NCBI GenBank assembly: GCA_030425385.1 | Contig: JAUIAH010000047.1 | Coordinates: 1 to 41,806, forward strand | From: Verrucomicrobiia bacterium | Lineage (GTDB): Bacteria > Verrucomicrobiota > Verrucomicrobiia > Verrucomicrobiales > DEV007 | DNA length: 41,806 nt | Direction of reading: 5' to 3' | Shown: piece after piece, positions 1 through 38,522 of the stretch | Position numbering within the stretch: the stretch's first letter is position 1 | Layout: every line of letters starts with the position of its first letter | The notes under the pieces: generated by a model | What the model saw: the letters and a program-made list of their open reading frames with translations, nothing else | What the model was told of the DNA's origin: nothing | The model's database searches: none | Made by a program: the position numbers and the translations under genes

Positions 1-1414
1 CGTCCTTGAGGGAAGCGACCTTGGTGCGCCCGACTTCGGTGATGATGTCTCCGGCTTTGAGGCCTTTGGTGGCGGCTTCCGAATCGGGAGCCACTTCCGT
101 GATGACGATGCCTTCGATTTCTTCCGCATTTAATTGCTGACGATAGCGTTCCTTGAGGTCGTCTACCTTGAGCCCTTCAATGAAGGGTTCGGGTCCATTG
201 GAAGGTGTGGTATTCCGTGAGGGGAATCCGTTTTGTGCCAACTGCCCTTCTTCTGGTAGACGGCCGATGGTGACGGCGATGGGCGTTTCCTTGCCGTCAC
301 GCATGACGGTGAGGTCGAGTTTGGAGCCTGGACGTTTGCTACTGACATAGAGGCGAGTCTTCTGCATGTCCTTGGCTGGTTGGTTGTCGACTCTGACAAT
401 GATGTCACCGTCCTCAAGACCGGCTTCTTTGGCGGGCGTGTTGTCGAGGACTGTATTGACGAGGACCCCATCATCTTTCACACCCATGGCTTCGGCCAGA
501 TCGGGCGTGAGGTCGCCGAGCATGACGCCTAGATACCCGCGCTGGATCTCACCGGTGGTGATGAGTTGGTCGACGATGTTCACGACCATATTGATGGGAA
601 TGGCGAATCCGATGCCAACGTTGCCGCCAGTCCGCGAGAGGATGGCGGTGTTGATGCCCACTAGGCGTCCTTTGTTGTCGACCAGCGCGCCGCCGGAGTT
701 GCCGGGATTGATGGACGCGTTGGTTTGAATGAAGTTCTCGTAGTCAACAATGGACATATTCGAGCGGCCGAGGGCGCTGACGATGCCAGAGGTAACCGTT
801 TGGCTGAGGCCGAAGGGATTACCGATGGCCAAGACAGTATCGCCGACTTTCATGACGCTGCTATCTGCCACGGAAATGGTGGGGAGGTCAGTGGCGTCTA
901 TCTTGAGGACGGCCAGGTCTGTCTTGGGATCGGCTCCCACGACTTCGGCGTCGTAGGTCTTCTTGTCGTTGGGGAGGGAGACCTTGATCTCGGTGGCTCC
1001 ATCGATGACGTGATTATTCGTCACCAAATAGCCATCGCTCGTCAGTATGACCCCGGACCCCATGCCTTCGCGTCTGGGAATGGCCCCTTGTGGGAGTCGC
1101 CCATCGGGAATACCGAAGAACCGGCGGAGTTCGTCGGCGTAGGGATCCTGGGATGCCGCTGCGGTGGCTACCTTGGTGGAGGTGGCGATGCTCACGACAC
1201 TCGGAGCCACCCGCTCGACGATGTCGGCGTAGCCGCCGAGAGGCCCCTCGCGATCGGGCGGGCTGGCGTCACGCTGGATCATGGAGGAGAGGGGCTTTGC
1301 CGTCTCGCCTTGCAGCGCCATGGTGCCGAAGAAGGCCATGGAGGCTCCGGCGCCAAGGGCTGCAGCGAGTTTCAGGGAGGATTTGAGGCGATGTGGAGTT
1401 GCTGTTTCTGTCAT
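1..1414 (-). CDS. HtrA/DegP-type periplasmic serine protease with PDZ domains (C-terminus cut by window edge)
   Basis: This is a trypsin-like protease of the Do/HtrA family, which degrades or refolds misfolded envelope proteins. Reading from the ATG at 1414, about 471 codons are present and no stop occurs before base 1, so the C-terminus is missing. The catalytic triad is visible: H135 in LVTNNHVIDG, D166 in DLAVLKID and S240 in NPGNSGGAL. The spacings of 31 and 74 residues match the family. A PDZ domain follows (from about residue 285, 'GYLGVML'), and a second PDZ begins near the window edge ('GIVITEVAPDSEAA'). The first ~45 residues contain a hydrophobic, alanine-rich stretch consistent with an export signal. 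It is transcribed away from the KR-DH gene, with 251 bp between them. Family assignment is very secure; which paralogue (DegP, DegQ or DegS) is not decidable. Confidence 0.95.
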   Translation of the reverse strand, partial: MTETATPHRLKSSLKLAAALGAGASMAFFGTMALQGETAKPLSSMIQRDASPPDREGPLGGYADIVERVAPSVVSIATSTKVATAAASQDPYADELRRFFGIPDGRLPQGAIPRREGMGSGVILTSDGYLVTNNHVIDGATEIKVSLPNDKKTYDAEVVGADPKTDLAVLKIDATDLPTISVADSSVMKVGDTVLAIGNPFGLSQTVTSGIVSALGRSNMSIVDYENFIQTNASINPGNSGGALVDNKGRLVGINTAILSRTGGNVGIGFAIPINMVVNIVDQLITTGEIQRGYLGVMLGDLTPDLAEAMGVKDDGVLVNTVLDNTPAKEAGLEDGDIIVRVDNQPAKDMQKTRLYVSSKRPGSKLDLTVMRDGKETPIAVTIGRLPEEGQLAQNGFPSRNTTPSNGPEPFIEGLKVDDLKERYRQQLNAEEIEGIVITEVAPDSEAATKGLKAGDIITEVGRTKVASLKD

Positions 1415-1665: not shown

Positions 1666-4600
1666 ATGAATCCATCGACCACGGCCCCCGAAGACGCTCC
1701 TCAGACAGGCCCTGAAATGAATTTGCAGCACCTTGATGCGCTCTTCGAGGCCTTCCGGCGGGAGTGTGAGCAGGCCTATGTGGCCTATCAGGAGGCGGTG
1801 AACGCGGGCTATGCGGGATTGCAGCAGCGCGCTCAGGAACTGCGTGTGGGGCTTGGGGAAGAATTGCGATCCACGCATGATGAGGTGTGGACACGGGCGC
1901 GTGCCGAGGCGGAACAGGTGGTGGTGCAAGCGCGTGGCGAGGCCGAGCAGGTGGCCGCCCATGCACGGGGAGAGGCGGAGCAATTGGCGAATCGCGCTCA
2001 ATCGGAGGCTGAGAATCTTCTCGAAACCGCGCGTGCTCAAGCAGAGGAAGCGCTTGAGCGAGCGAAGACCGAGGGCGACGGGCTGATTGGGAACGCGCGC
2101 TCCGAAGCGGATGAAGTGGTGGGGCAAGCGCAGGCTGAAGCCGAAGCGTTGCTGGCTCGTGCCAATGCCGAGGCCGACGTGATCATTGCGAGAGCGAACA
2201 CCACCGCAGCTGAGAAAGTCTTGGCGCATCGGTCAGGGAGCCCTGTGGCGCCTACCCGGACGGCCCAACCCACGGAGACGGCTCAAGCGGTGCTCTCGCC
2301 TGCGGAGAGTGCGCCAGCGGAAGAAGCTCCAAAGGCAGAGGAGGCAGTCGAAAGCCCCTCACTGCTCGGGCTGGCGGCCACGGGAGCCTCTCTCCTTGGC
2401 AGCTCCATGGGCACGGGCAAGCTGGGCCTCTCTCAGAGTCTCTTGGCTCCCAAGCCCAGTTCGATCCCGAGTGGGGAAGGAAGTCTGTTAGGCAAAGTTG
2501 AAACGGCGAGCACACCTGTCGCCGAAGCCCTGACGCCTTCACCAACAGCGGAAACGATTTCTCCTGTGGCGGAAACGCCCGTCTTGCCTCCCAAAGAGCC
2601 AACTGGGCCGGTGGTGGAAAGCACGCCTCTTCCCCTAGCGGAAACGCCACCCTCAGTGCCTGTTCCCGTTGTGTTGGAGACGCCTCCTGTTGCGGAGGCT
2701 CCCGCCGAAACGGCTCCTGTGCCCGAGCCCGCGGCCCCTGTGGTGACCGAATCTCCTTCAGCGGAAGTGGCGACTCCTGAGGCGCCCGTGTCGCCGGTAA
2801 ACTTGCCCCCGTTGCCATCGATGCCGCCTGCGCCGGAGGCTGTATCGATACCGCCGGTGAGTGCTCAAGAGGTGACCCCCGTCATTCCTGAGCCTGTCCA
2901 AGCAGTCGCGCCGGTTCAGGACCAGGAGCCCGAACCTGAACCCGTGGTTGAGACGCCGCCGTCGCCGCCATCCGATGAACCAGAGTTGGTGGAGCGGTCG
3001 AGCATGTTGCGGATTGTGTCGTCGAAGACTGGGTATCCTGTAGAAATGTTAGAAGAGCATTTGGAGAGTGGTCGCAAGCTCCAACTCACGCCTCCCAAGC
3101 TGATTGATATCTTTGCCGAAATGACAGAGCGCTTTCCCAAAGCGCCCGCTTTGGACTTGGCGCGTATTGGAGAATTGGTCGATCTCCACCGCCTCTTTGG
3201 CTACACGAGCAAGCCTGATGAGCCCAAACAGATCGAGGTGGAAGTGGTAGAGCCCGCGCCTGCCCCTCCTGCGGAGACGCCAGAAGCTTCCAACGCTCCA
3301 AGTTCTCCCTTTCAAGTAGCCGAGGAAGCGCCTAGCAAACCGGTCATCCCACCCGATTCGCCCTTTCGTGAGGCCGCGCCCTCCTCGCCCTTTACGGTTG
3401 CGGATGAGGGACAAGCAGAGGCTTCTGCTCCGGTGGAATCCCCTTTCCAAGCGGTGTCTAACGATGTGGTGAGTCCTTTCCAACCGGCGGGCGATCCCGG
3501 TCCAGTGGCCTCTCCGTTTCAAGCGGTGGAGGAAGAGGTGCCTCAGGCTGTAGAGGCTGCACCCGTGCCTGAAACGCCCCCTGCACCAGCACCGACGCCT
3601 GAGCCTGCCGAGACGGAAATCTCCGTGGATCGGCATGTGCTCCGGGGACACGTGGCCCCGCCCTGCGGACTGGGCCTTCCCCAATTGCACGATGTGGACA
3701 AGATCTACATCGTGCCGGATGGGCGGCGCGTCGCGGAGGCGTTGAAGGGATTGTTAGTCGCAGACGGGTTCGACGCTGAGGTAGCCAAGACCGTGCCGCC
3801 CGAGGCGCGCGGGGTGATCTTTCTGGGAGGACTACAAGATGTTTCCAGCGCCGAGCAGGCTCTGGCCATCCAGATGGAAGCCTTCCAAGCCGCGCGGTCA
3901 GTCATGCAAGGCCTGGCCGATCGGCGTGGGCTCTTTGTCACGGTGCAAGACACGGGAGGAGACTTTGGCCTCAGTGCGCAGGGACAGAAAGAGGCCTGGA
4001 TTGGAGGGTTGCCAGGACTGGTGCGGACGATGGCAGCAGAGTGTCCCGATTTGGGAGTGAAAGCGTTAGATGTGGAACGCGAAGGGCGTTCGGCTGAAGC
4101 CCTGGCACGCCGAATCCTCCGCGAATTGACGGCTGGTGGTCCCGAAGTCGAGATTGGCTTGAGTGCCGATGGGACGCGCCTGACGCAAGCGTTAGATCTG
4201 ACAGAACGATCGGAATGCTCTCTGAGCGTGGACGAGAATGGCGTTGTGGTCGTGCACGGTGTGGGGCAGGGGATCATGACCATGCTAGTGTTAGAAATGG
4301 CGAAGCGAAAGCGGCTGCGCTTTGTCTTGTTAGGCTCGGTCATCTTCCAGGAGGAGGCGGAGGACCCCTTCGCGGCGCTAACGGATACCGATGATTTACG
4401 GAAAGCGCTCGTCGAGCTCAGTCAGCAGCAGCCCGATGGCACAAGCCCAGAAGCGATCGAGCAACAGCTGCATACGCTTCTGGCCCAACGTGAGGTGCGT
4501 TTCCTCATGAAAGAACTCCGCGCCGTGGGATCGACGGTGTGTTACTTCGCAGTGGACTCGACGGATGCCATGGCTCTGGAAACGATCCTGACACAGGTGC

Positions 4601-35143: not shown

Positions 35144-35929
35144 TCAGCCCAGAAGCTGAATGGCCTGTTCCGCCGTCGCATTCTCGTGCACCAGCGCATG
35201 CATCGCCTTGGCCATGGCCACAGGATCAGGTGCCTGCCACACATTGCGACCGATCGCGATGCCCGCAGCTCCCGCCTCCAAGGCATCCGCCACGTCGCGG
35301 AGCAAGGCGTGCGGATTCGAAGAGGCCGCCCCGCCCAGAATCACCACCGGGACATAGGCCTCGTCCACGGCTCTAGCAAAAGCCTCCTTATCGCCAGGGT
35401 AGGCCGTCTTCACGACATCCGCCCCCAGTTCGCAGCCTAACCGAATGCAGAAATGAATCTTCTCGGCAGTGTAGTCCCACGACTTGCCAAGCCCATAAGG
35501 CAAGGCCTCTAACATAATCGGATGTGGAGCTTCCAGGCACTCGGAAATGAGATCCGCGCAGTCGATCAGATTCGCCATTTCGCGAGGGTGCCCCGGAAAT
35601 GTCATGTTCATCAGCGCGTGCGCCCCCACCGCCTTCGCATCCTCGATCCCATAGATCCGGAATGAGCCATCCGTATGGTGGTTCTCAATGCACGTGTTGC
35701 CAGTATCGGTTCTCAGCACCACCCCTTTCCCTTCCAGTTGTTTCTGGAAGGCACGCGCCACCCCCAAGTTCACGATGAATCCATCGCAATAGGGCTTCAG
35801 TTCTTCAATAAGAGCGCCTGTGTCTTCCAAGCCGGGCACGGGCAACAAGGTGCCGTGATCGATCGGGATCATCACCGTGCGGTTCGTCGCAGGATGAAAG
35901 AAGTGTTTGAGATTCGTTTTGTCCGTCAT
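35144..35929 (-). CDS. Class I aldolase of the DhnA/DeoC-like family
   Basis: A 261-residue cytosolic TIM-barrel enzyme related to archaeal-type class I fructose-bisphosphate aldolases, LsrF and similar Schiff-base aldolases. Supporting segments are 'VMIPIDHGTLLPVPGL', 'ADVVKTAYPGD' with the likely Schiff-base Lys174, 'VVILGGAASSNP' and the phosphate-binding 'AGAAGIAIGRNVWQ'. I place the start at the ATG at 35929 (MTDKTNLKHFF), because the longer frame has no family-like N-terminus. The substrate could be fructose 1,6-bisphosphate or another sugar phosphate. It follows the thioredoxin gene on the same strand after 90 bp, possibly cotranscribed, but I see no functional link. Confidence 0.92.
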   Translation of the reverse strand: MTDKTNLKHFFHPATNRTVMIPIDHGTLLPVPGLEDTGALIEELKPYCDGFIVNLGVARAFQKQLEGKGVVLRTDTGNTCIENHHTDGSFRIYGIEDAKAVGAHALMNMTFPGHPREMANLIDCADLISECLEAPHPIMLEALPYGLGKSWDYTAEKIHFCIRLGCELGADVVKTAYPGDKEAFARAVDEAYVPVVILGGAASSNPHALLRDVADALEAGAAGIAIGRNVWQAPDPVAMAKAMHALVHENATAEQAIQLLG

Positions 35930-36019
35930 GGTTGGGCCGCAAGGCTGGCCCGCATCTCGCCCCTCTTCAAGAAACGAATCGTCCCGCACAGGGGAGACCT
36001 TCAGGCCGCGCCTGCCAGA

Positions 36020-36424
36020 TCACCCACTGTAGCGCAGCACCTGCGAGGCCATGCTCTTGCTGGGGCGCAATTGTTCCACCACTTGCCCATTCTTGAAGAC
36101 GAGGATCGTGGGAATACCCCGAATGCCGAAACGCGGCCCCAACGCCTGATTGTCGTCTACATTGATCTTGGCGACCTTCGCTCCCGCTCCCATCTCATCA
36201 GCTGCTCGTTCCACCAACGGTGTCACACGTTTGCAAGGACCTCACCACGGCGCCCAGAAATACGCGAGAACGGGCTCCCGACTCAAGATCACCTCACTCT
36301 CGAAATTCGCAGGCGTGATCACCACCGGCGCAGAGCCGCCCGTACGATAATCGCTCTCTCGCGGGAAGAGATAGTAAATCAACGCCGCGAGGCCGCAAAA
36401 GACCATGATCGATTCCTTGCTCAT
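36020..36424 (-). CDS. Membrane-anchored thioredoxin, probable selenoprotein (TGA at the first redox cysteine)
   Basis: Read from the ATG at 36424 to the TGA at 36020-36022, the frame encodes 134 residues if the in-frame TGA at 36242-36244 is decoded. The N-terminus is one hydrophobic helix (about 6-20, 'IMVFCGLAALIYYLF') that should anchor the protein. A thioredoxin fold follows: 'VLAYFWAPW', then the TGA at position 61, then GPC (C64), 'VAKINVDDN', and 'GIRGIPTILVFKNG' with the cis-proline. The active site is therefore W-[TGA]-G-P-C, where thioredoxins have WCGPC. Both halves are well preserved and in the same frame. This is the pattern of a selenocysteine-containing thioredoxin (UGPC); a single-base nonsense change or sequencing error is the alternative. 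Automated annotation would split it into two fragments. No selA, selB, selC or selD is in the window. Confidence 0.82.
36208..36226 (-). promoter_or_regulatory. Candidate bacterial SECIS hairpin downstream of the thioredoxin TGA
   Basis: On the minus strand, the RNA after the TGA can fold as CACC-GUU-GGUG (36222-36212), four perfect pairs with a loop starting with G, 24 bases after the TGA. Two G-A mismatches and two further pairs (outer G at 36226, C at 36208) can extend it. Bacterial SECIS elements are short hairpins in the coding region just after the UGA with a conserved G early in the loop, so position and shape fit. The stem is short and could be chance. Confidence 0.4.
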
Positions 36425-36543
36425 TTCTTTATACTTACCATAACTTCAACAAATGGAAACCACGTTCTTTCATCGGGTTTCTATCGGGGGAAAGCACGCT
36501 AATCTCTTTGCCCCCACGCGCTCGATTCTCTAAAGCTCAACTC

Positions 36544-37428
36544 ATGATGATGACGATGACGATGATAAAACCTTCTTGGATCCTCTGCCTGTTCACTACC
36601 ACCCTCCTCGTGCTCCCGCCCGCACGCGGAGAAGACAAGAAGGACGAGGACGCCAAGAAAGAGGAGAAGGTGGAAGTCTCCGCTTTCCCAGACAAAAACT
36701 TCGAAGCCGCCGTCCGCCAGCAGGTCTTCTCCAAACGCGGCACAGACAAGCCCGTCACGGCGGAAGACGTTCGCAACATATCAGTCATCCACGGGAACGG
36801 CTTGGGCATCAAAAGCCTGGAGGGACTTCAGCACTGTGTCAGTGTAGCGGAAATCCGATTGGCAGAGAATGAGATCGAAGATCTCACCCCCATGAAAGAC
36901 CTCAAACGCCTCCAATCGGTCAGCTTGGAAAAGAACAACATCACTGACATCACTCCCATCGGCACCCTCGCCGCCCTCCAATACCTCAACCTCGAGCACA
37001 ATCGCGTCAAAGACCTAACCCCCATCAAGGGACTGGTGAAACTCAACTCCCTCTACCTCACAGACAATCGCATCAAAGATATCAGCATGTTAGGCGACCT
37101 CAAAAAACTATGGTCCCTTTATGTTGGCGACAATGTGATCCAAGACATCTCCGTCGTAGGTCAGTTGCCATGGCTCCAAAGTCTGGAAATCCGCGACAAT
37201 GGGCTCTCCGATCTCAAGGGGCTAGACAAGATTCGCGACGTGCGCTTCCTCGACATGCGCAACAACAAAGTCGCGGATCTCCAACCACTCATTGAAGCCT
37301 GTGAGCGTGATGCTAAGGGAGACACCCGCTTTGCCCCATTTCTCCGTCTCTACCTCAAAGGCAATGACAGCTTGCAAGAAGAACAACTTAAACGCTTGCA
37401 AACCATCGGCGTGCGTATCGAAGGATGA
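36544..37428 (+). CDS. Exported leucine-rich repeat protein
   Basis: A 294-residue protein with a signal peptide ('IKPSWILCLFTTTLLVLPPARG') and a charged linker. About seven 22-residue leucine-rich repeats of the internalin type follow ('LAENEIEDLTPMKDLKRLQSV', 'LEKNNITDITPIG', 'LEHNRVKDLTPIKGL', 'LTDNRIKDISMLG'). Such repeats form a curved binding surface; the ligand is unknown. Five in-frame ATGs occur within 21 bases at the start (36544, 36547, 36550, 36556, 36562) with no clear ribosome binding site. The exact start is therefore open; the last one gives the tidiest signal peptide. Its stop overlaps the start of the NHL-repeat gene (ATGA). Confidence 0.87.
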   Translation: MMMTMTMIKPSWILCLFTTTLLVLPPARGEDKKDEDAKKEEKVEVSAFPDKNFEAAVRQQVFSKRGTDKPVTAEDVRNISVIHGNGLGIKSLEGLQHCVSVAEIRLAENEIEDLTPMKDLKRLQSVSLEKNNITDITPIGTLAALQYLNLEHNRVKDLTPIKGLVKLNSLYLTDNRIKDISMLGDLKKLWSLYVGDNVIQDISVVGQLPWLQSLEIRDNGLSDLKGLDKIRDVRFLDMRNNKVADLQPLIEACERDAKGDTRFAPFLRLYLKGNDSLQEEQLKRLQTIGVRIEG

Positions 37429-38522
37429 AAGCCAGCCTCCACGCATCTGTCCTGGCCTCCGTCCTCTTGTTAGGGCCGCTCTTCGCCCAAGAGACAGAGA
37501 TCATCTCCATCGCGGGCACCGGCGTGCCCGGCTACTCAGGTGACGGAGGCCCCGCCACCGAGGCTCAGTTAAACAACCCGTTCGGACTCGTCCGCGGCCC
37601 TGACAAAGCCCTCTACATCTGCGATACCGGAAATCACGTCATCCGCAAGATCTCGCCGCAAGGCATCATCTCGACCGTCGCTGGCACCGCAGGCGTCAGC
37701 GGCCATACGGGCGATGGCGGCCCCGCCACCCAAGCAACCCTCTTTGAGCCCTACGAAGTGCGCTTCGACAAAGCAGGCGACCTCTACATTGTCGAAATGC
37801 GCAGTCACCTCATCCGCAAAATCGATCAAAAAACCGGGCGCATCACCACCATCGCCGGCACCGGAGCACAAGGCTACTCAGGAGACGGAGGCCCCGCCAT
37901 CGCAGCCACCTTCTCCCGCCCCCATAGCATCCAATTCGGGCCCAAAGGAGACCTCTACGTCTGTGACATTGGCAATCACCGCCTCCGCAAGATCTCCATG
38001 GCGGATGGCACCGTCACCACCGTTTCCGGCACCGGAGAAAAACGCCTTCCACAAGACGGCCAAGCCTTCGCCAACGCCCCCCTATACGGACCTCGAGCCA
38101 TCGACTTCGATACCCAAGGGCAGCTCTGGCTAGCCCTCCGCGAAGGCAATCGCCTCTACCGACTCGACCTTGATAAAGGAACCCTCCACTGGGAAGGCGG
38201 CACCGGCCAAAAAGGATTCACCGGAAACGGCGGCCCGGCCAAGGAAGCCACCCTCTCAGGCCCCAAAGGCGTCAGCATCGGCCCCCACGGAGACGTCTTC
38301 CTAGCAGACACCGAAAGCCACTCCGTCCGCGTCTACAACCCTCACAAAGGCACCCTCGACCTCATCGCCGGCACCGGCGAAAAAGGCGACGGCCCCAACG
38401 GGCACCCTCACCAATGCGCCATGGCCAGACTCCACGGCGTCTATGTCGATCACGAAGGCAACATCCACATCGGCGACAGCGAAGCCCACCGTATCCGCCT
38501 CATCAAAAAGAAAACCCCATAA
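37425..38522 (+). CDS. Exported NHL-repeat beta-propeller protein
   Basis: A 365-residue protein starting at an ATG that overlaps the stop of the LRR gene (ATGA), so the two are coupled. A signal peptide (MKASLHASVLASVLLLGPLFA) is followed by five to six NHL-type blades. Each has a unit like 'GTGVPGYSGDGGPATEAQLNNPFGL' in short form (GYSGDGGPA, GHTGDGGPA, GYSGDGGPA, GFTGNGGPA) and a 'LYICDTGNHVIRKI' strand. NHL propellers bind proteins or act as lactonase-like enzymes; no metal-ligand set is evident. Pairing with an LRR protein suggests a secreted recognition module. The coding strand is very C-rich (for example GCC, ACC, CTC), unlike most + strand genes in the window. Confidence 0.88.
   Translation: MKASLHASVLASVLLLGPLFAQETEIISIAGTGVPGYSGDGGPATEAQLNNPFGLVRGPDKALYICDTGNHVIRKISPQGIISTVAGTAGVSGHTGDGGPATQATLFEPYEVRFDKAGDLYIVEMRSHLIRKIDQKTGRITTIAGTGAQGYSGDGGPAIAATFSRPHSIQFGPKGDLYVCDIGNHRLRKISMADGTVTTVSGTGEKRLPQDGQAFANAPLYGPRAIDFDTQGQLWLALREGNRLYRLDLDKGTLHWEGGTGQKGFTGNGGPAKEATLSGPKGVSIGPHGDVFLADTESHSVRVYNPHKGTLDLIAGTGEKGDGPNGHPHQCAMARLHGVYVDHEGNIHIGDSEAHRIRLIKKKTP

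Follow-up and report, generated by a model that had tools for sequence, protein, structure and literature searches.

Does an in-frame TGA in the middle of a thioredoxin gene mark a dead gene, or is it read as selenocysteine (Sec)? The question is raised by a locus in a Verrucomicrobiia bacterium (assembly GCA_030425385.1), where the TGA occupies the codon of the first catalytic residue. The window, i.e., the whole stretch of DNA that was analysed, is the 41,806 nucleotides of contig JAUIAH010000047.1. Judged from sequence, the Sec reading is strongly supported. The gene (trx) very probably specifies a thioredoxin-fold oxidoreductase held in the membrane by one N-terminal segment, with Sec first in a UGPC motif and inserted by way of SelB and a hairpin.

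A thioredoxin frame with one internal TGA

The trx frame runs from 36424 to 36020 on the minus strand and comprises 134 codons, including one TGA that is read through. The original prediction gave these coordinates correctly and left the strand unstated. The TGA at 36244-36242 is the sole in-frame stop inside the frame. Reading through it yields a product of 134 residues, MSKESIMVFCGLAALIYYLF...YFWAPW-U-GPCKRV...GIRGIPTILVFKNG..., and the standard code splits the gene into pieces of 60 aa (36242-36424) and 68 aa (36020-36226), the two fragments expected of standard annotation. The features of the gene and its downstream neighbour are as follows.

36020-36424, minus strand: predicted trx selenoprotein gene (ATG 36424-36422; terminal TGA 36022-36020)
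36365-36409, minus strand: hydrophobic N-terminal segment, residues 6-20, IMVFCGLAALIYYLF, from hydropathy and alignment; probable uncleaved membrane anchor
36242-36244, minus strand: in-frame TGA, predicted Sec residue 61, first of the UGPC active site; also TGA in four full-length relatives
36233-36235, minus strand: TGC, predicted resolving Cys64 of U-G-P-C; invariant in the five TGA members
36110-36112, minus strand: codon for proline 105 (in GIPT), at the thioredoxin cis-proline place; I104 and P105 invariant in the five
35144-35989, minus strand: DeoC/LacD-family aldolase-like gene, downstream of trx; also adjacent to trx in G003 and G002, genomes of the same genus

The TGA had been placed at the first catalytic cysteine of the thioredoxin motif, and it does align with the first Cys of CGPC in the solved thioredoxin 2yj7. 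The second cysteine (C64), the segment with the cis-proline (P105), whose role in thioredoxins is established, and the C-terminal half all follow in frame with no lesion other than the one internal TGA, also as foreseen. With Cys substituted for Sec, residues 34-121 match Pfam PF00085 at 90.5 bits, above the gathering cut-off of 23.5, and with the second Cys and the cis-proline present the protein belongs to that family. Under the same substitution it narrowly misses the cut-off of TIGR01068, the NCBIfam thioredoxin equivalog (92.5 vs 96.8 bits). The sole match among the NCBIfam selenoprotein models is to TsoB, at 21.5 bits, where the cut-off is 805.

The membrane anchor claimed for the N-terminal half corresponds to the hydrophobic stretch at residues 6-20, and anchoring is graded as probable from hydropathy and alignment. 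A similar N-terminal stretch is present in all five TGA members, where the best 17-residue window has a hydropathy of 1.78-2.14. This pattern suggests one membrane segment, with the thioredoxin domain perhaps oriented outside the cytoplasm.

Relatives that carry the TGA

In a protein search a lone TGA at the active-site codon was found, among the matches listed, in at least 5 of 141 genomes: the genome containing the window (G000), G003, G009, G011 and G016. They span four genera; G003 belongs to the genus of G000, and G009, G011 and G016 represent three others of the same family. TGA-containing homologues thus occur in four other organisms. A profile made from the five, whose scores favour the sequences it was built from, recovered the same five at 198-218 bits from 74 genomes of the family, with the remaining matches listed all at or below 121 bits. 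One profile match in that set, in G056, has one TGA and one TAA across a longer stretch. In G002, of the same genus as G000, the contig ends inside trx, just past the active site. Among 387 genomes from the phylum (up to 10 candidates scored per genome), there was no further lone-TGA match among the matches listed; one match, in G341, has one TGA plus two TAA.

Outside the TGA group the homologues have Cys at the site, save one divergent paralogue with Ser (L205). The alignment of homologues proposed as a check therefore gives Cys in relatives and TGA in a group of five. None of the five genes has a second in-frame stop before its end, and the further lesions in close relatives that would have counted against the prediction are absent from the four full-length TGA relatives. 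A chance nonsense mutation had been judged unlikely at the outset, and the occurrence of TGA at the same codon in four other genomes bears this out.

In a thioredoxin tree of 124 rows (112 different), a single branch with 98/98 support, recovered in 99% of 200 bootstrap trees, separates the five TGA members from all other rows; the tree has few columns, a bootstrap that had not settled and deeper forks left unresolved. The motif filter used for that tree removed several loci, including three N-terminally extended family proteins (L204, L205 and L206). Two of these, L204 (G006) and L206 (G029), carry Cys at this position and cluster with Cys rows in a second tree of 37 rows. The third, L205 (G003:C158, 1032-1394, minus strand), is an anchored paralogue, similar in length, that has Ser for the first Cys, then Ala-Ala, and retains the second Cys. 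In the 37-row tree a branch with 94/94 support, present in 93% of bootstrap trees, separates the TGA five together with L205 from the other rows; with L205 included, the five alone form a clade in just 26% of bootstrap trees. The branch leading to L205 is very long (3.0), and this protein is possibly either a copy in decay or a partner without catalytic activity. Another anchored protein, L188 (G446:C32, from another family of the same class), has an ordinary CGPC and a long branch outside the TGA group, and is possibly an independent anchored form. L061, from Opitutaceae, groups in the trees with G267, a genome of the same class, which fits a verrucomicrobial placement of the family.

Downstream of the TGA the sequence evolves as expected of a protein-coding region. 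The nearest pair, the window and G003, has 72 base differences in the 73 codons that follow the TGA, of which 25, 15 and 32 fall at the first, second and third codon positions; dN is 0.31 and dS 1.01. For the remaining pairs dN is 0.39-0.63 and dS 1.2-3.8, values too high to trust.

Genes around trx differ among these genomes. In the window, a divergently transcribed gene for a leucine-rich-repeat protein (36508-37428, plus strand) is followed by one for an NHL-repeat protein (37425-38522, plus strand). The leucine-rich-repeat and aldolase-like genes both flank trx in G003; none of the genes that surround it in the window was found next to trx in G011, G009 or G016. A common gene neighbourhood was considered as a clue to substrate and rejected, since the neighbours are not kept outside the genus; the aldolase-like gene, kept within the genus and not found beyond it, likewise says little about substrate. 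In G016 (C80, L141) two ORFs of about 440 aa, alike by eye, lie on either side of the TGA thioredoxin (636-1961 and 2611-3933), apparently a tandem duplication with trx between. Searches of the window gave no match to Rfam and, with ARAGORN, no tRNA. Elsewhere, 1511 plasmid records match the thioredoxin, all at less than 60% identity, and 10 viral loci do so at 32-39% identity.

Selenocysteine machinery and a SECIS-like hairpin

The genome containing the window (8.0 Mb, 74 contigs, 95.5% complete) encodes all four components of the Sec machinery for which a search had been proposed, and whose absence would have told against a selenoprotein. The tRNA-Sec scores 65.1 bits, and ARAGORN concurs (SeC with anticodon tca); selB scores 283.4 bits against a cut-off of 242.25, selA 490.6 bits and selD 361.2 bits. 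The selD gene (L134, G000:C23:120876-121799, minus strand) has one in-frame TGA, in TCGUAAK, which we take to be the Sec or Cys site of SelD proteins, and is itself a probable selenoprotein gene by this TGA. With trx, this genome thus has at least two genes with TGA at a catalytic position. The selD genes of G003 and G016 have one TGA each; those of G001, G002, G009 and G011 occur as a long frame (757-797 aa) with no TGA. In G000, in the region C41 (L143, 2456-3782), the tRNA-Sec gene lies just upstream of an ORF of 388 aa, by eye an NADH-dehydrogenase-type flavoprotein, with a glycosyltransferase-like ORF next after it. The flavoprotein-like ORF may resemble the half that is fused to SelD elsewhere.

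Among the four other TGA genomes, selD was found in all, selA in three (not detected in G009, a draft of 720 contigs) and a tRNA-Sec above 60 bits in three (not detected in G003, a draft of 680 contigs); the search for selB covered G000. The tRNA-Sec cut-off is lax. Control genomes of Caulobacter, Thermus and Thermotoga, which are not known to use Sec, also exceed it, and matches of about 46-52 bits were therefore excluded from the counts. Six family genomes chosen for missing selA have no detected selD (0/6) and no TGA among their thioredoxins listed. A selA match is present in 48 of the 74 family genomes, far more than carry a TGA thioredoxin. For example, G001, of the same genus as G000, has selA, tRNA-Sec and selD and no TGA thioredoxin among the matches listed.

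A SECIS-like stem-loop follows the TGA. Its elements in the window copy are given below, with column numbers from the alignment of the five.

36201-36234, minus strand: SECIS-like stem-loop, from the alignment of five and a hairpin search
36226-36219 with 36215-36208, minus strand: upper stem, columns 19-26 with 30-37; predicted pairing
36222-36219 with 36215-36212, minus strand: inner four pairs, the only uninterrupted ones in the window copy; from its own sequence
36218-36216, minus strand: apical loop GTT, three bases
Columns 11-16 and 40-44, minus strand: lower stem pairs, predicted from the alignment

In all five TGA members columns 23-26 (CACC) pair with columns 30-33 (GGTG), the three-base loop begins with G, and the spacing from TGA to loop is 23 nt. 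The uninterrupted stem is 4 bp in the window copy, 6 bp in G003 and 8 bp in each of the other three. Limits for bSECIS elements on loop, stem, spacing and energy (at or below -7.5 kcal/mol) are printed in a 2026 review (PMC13188914), and all five members (loop GNN, stems of 4-8 bp, spacing of 23 nt) lie within the first three. Against the limit on energy, the window and G003 copies are borderline. Folding energies are -7.4 (40 nt) and -8.9 kcal/mol (45 nt) for the window copy, and -6.2 (40 nt) and -9.2 kcal/mol (45 nt) for L105. Over +12 to +45 the window copy folds at -8.0 kcal/mol against a synonymous-shuffle mean of -10.0 (z +0.65), no better than the shuffles; z for the other four is -0.18 (L105), -1.10 (L106), -1.46 and -2.09. 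Over +3 to +51 the values are +1.43 for the window and -0.20, +1.07 (L106), -0.51 and -2.07 for the others.

Since single-sequence folding energies are uninformative, conservation of the register was used as evidence. A stem of at least 4 bp anywhere in the allowed range is found at 79 of 87 Cys sites, and one of at least 5 bp at 52 of 87, so that only the shared register is telling. A same-register stem of at least 4 bp is present in 5/5 TGA members vs 1 of 108 distinct Cys sites. The codon set common to the five occurs in none of the 17 Cys sites with a comparable S/T-P-x-V/L motif. The register was picked after inspection, and to compensate the shuffle test took in every register allowed. 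A joint score (least stem, then sum) as good as that of all five was reached by 0 of 5000 synonymous shuffles, a figure inflated because G000 and G003 are related; the counts were 4 of 5000 without L105 and 0 of 5000 without the window copy. By least stem alone, 92 of 5000 shuffles matched the five, 238 of 5000 the set without L105, and 0 of 5000 the set without the window copy. The shuffling treats codon choices as independent and draws on the codon usage of the window. Two-sided changes were seen in none of the upper-stem pairs, where the covariation score was matched by 296 of 500 shuffles, and in one lower-stem pair.

Readings of the TGA and known Sec-thioredoxins

A pseudogene, in which a Cys codon (TGC or TGT) became TGA by chance nonsense mutation or sequencing error, would need a single-base change, and loss of trx could be tolerated because G000 has two ordinary, stop-free CGPC thioredoxins (on C23 and C41). 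Such an event does not account for TGA at the same codon in five genomes of four genera, the grouping of these genes in trees, constraint on the sequence after the TGA, a hairpin register that Cys sites almost entirely lack, or a full Sec machinery in G000. It was rejected on these grounds as very improbable. A codon in frame with constrained sequence downstream would also be expected if UGA were decoded as another amino acid, by a change of code or suppressor read-through. Three of the five trx genes, however, use TGA as their terminal stop (the others end in TAG and TAA). Cys occupies this position in the homologues, and G000 has an apparatus dedicated to Sec; this reading was rejected too, its probability being close to nil.

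In a conditional selenium switch, UGA would mostly terminate translation to leave a membrane peptide of 60 residues, and the full protein would be made only when selenium is plentiful. Any Sec-UGA is in competition with release factor 2, and among the five hairpins that of the window is the shortest, both of which fit such a switch. Nothing points to a function of the truncated peptide, and the downstream constraint shows that the full product matters; a switch is rated as very unlikely.

With insertion of Sec as the preferred reading, trx would be a thiol-disulfide oxidoreductase tethered in the membrane by its single N-terminal hydrophobic segment. The hairpin, with its loop starting 23 nt past the UGA, would recruit SelB carrying Sec-tRNA-Sec, and at the UGA this complex would insert Sec in place of termination. 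As to chemistry, which like the reductant and substrate we infer, the selenolate would react with a disulfide of the substrate to give a mixed selenosulfide, which Cys64 would then resolve, like the two cysteines of an ordinary thioredoxin.

Sec at this position has precedents, as originally claimed. In the selenoprotein tables of two reviews (PMC13188914, PMC9312934) thioredoxin (PF00085, UxxC) stands before the 'predicted' entries, with WP_010956703.1 as the example; the text of PMC13188914 also deals with UxxC Sec-thioredoxins, and PMC9312934 refers to Kim et al. 2015. Sec-thioredoxins are listed by surveys in Geobacter, Anaeromyxobacter, Carboxydothermus, Treponema and marine metagenomes. 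Of the 'probable new selenoprotein' first proposed, the selenoprotein reading is supported and 'new' has to be tempered; the protein is a further member of the known UxxC kind. It shares with those proteins, as described in these sources, PF00085, Sec first in a UxxC motif and, by sequence, the bacterial Sec system; compared by description, it seems to differ in having an N-terminal hydrophobic segment, and it belongs to a group from a verrucomicrobial family. With ordinary bacterial thioredoxin (TIGR01068) it has in common the domain, the WxGPC motif and a proline at the cis-Pro place; it differs in scoring below that cut-off, in Sec for Cys and in the hydrophobic N-terminal segment. SaoT, the HUIPC motif, the UGC-containing TlpA family and Trx-like 1 of marine surveys are also thioredoxin-like with Sec in a redox motif, and by their labels are different families.

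A word search of the accessible text of PMC13188914, PMC9312934, PMC1794560, PMC2398784 and PMC12013277 gave no Verrucomicrob- wording. Titles and abstract openings on selenocysteine or selenoprotein with Verrucomicrobia or Verrucomicrobiota, in a search that most subscription papers fall outside, gave no description of such a protein. By titles, papers on selenocysteine with 'membrane-anchored thioredoxin' dealt with other subjects only, and a search on UGPC, again with most subscription papers outside it, gave nothing on such a protein.

The anchored TGA group, including the Ser paralogue L205, may be a distinct subfamily. A stronger version, which we hold tentatively and with rather more doubt than belief, is a distinct subfamily of anchored, probably extracytoplasmic thioredoxins whose active members use Sec and none of which has been seen with Cys. 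Because no active member seen uses Cys, Sec would be essential to the job and not interchangeable; finding L205 lowered our confidence in this slightly.

For the family, two discarded ORF fragments become one conserved redox enzyme, very probably a selenoprotein, and a probably anchored Sec-thioredoxin is added from a little-studied group of bacteria. The sister genomes with no detected selA or selD, and no TGA thioredoxin among the matches listed, provide a natural comparison on the cost of selenium in a thioredoxin.
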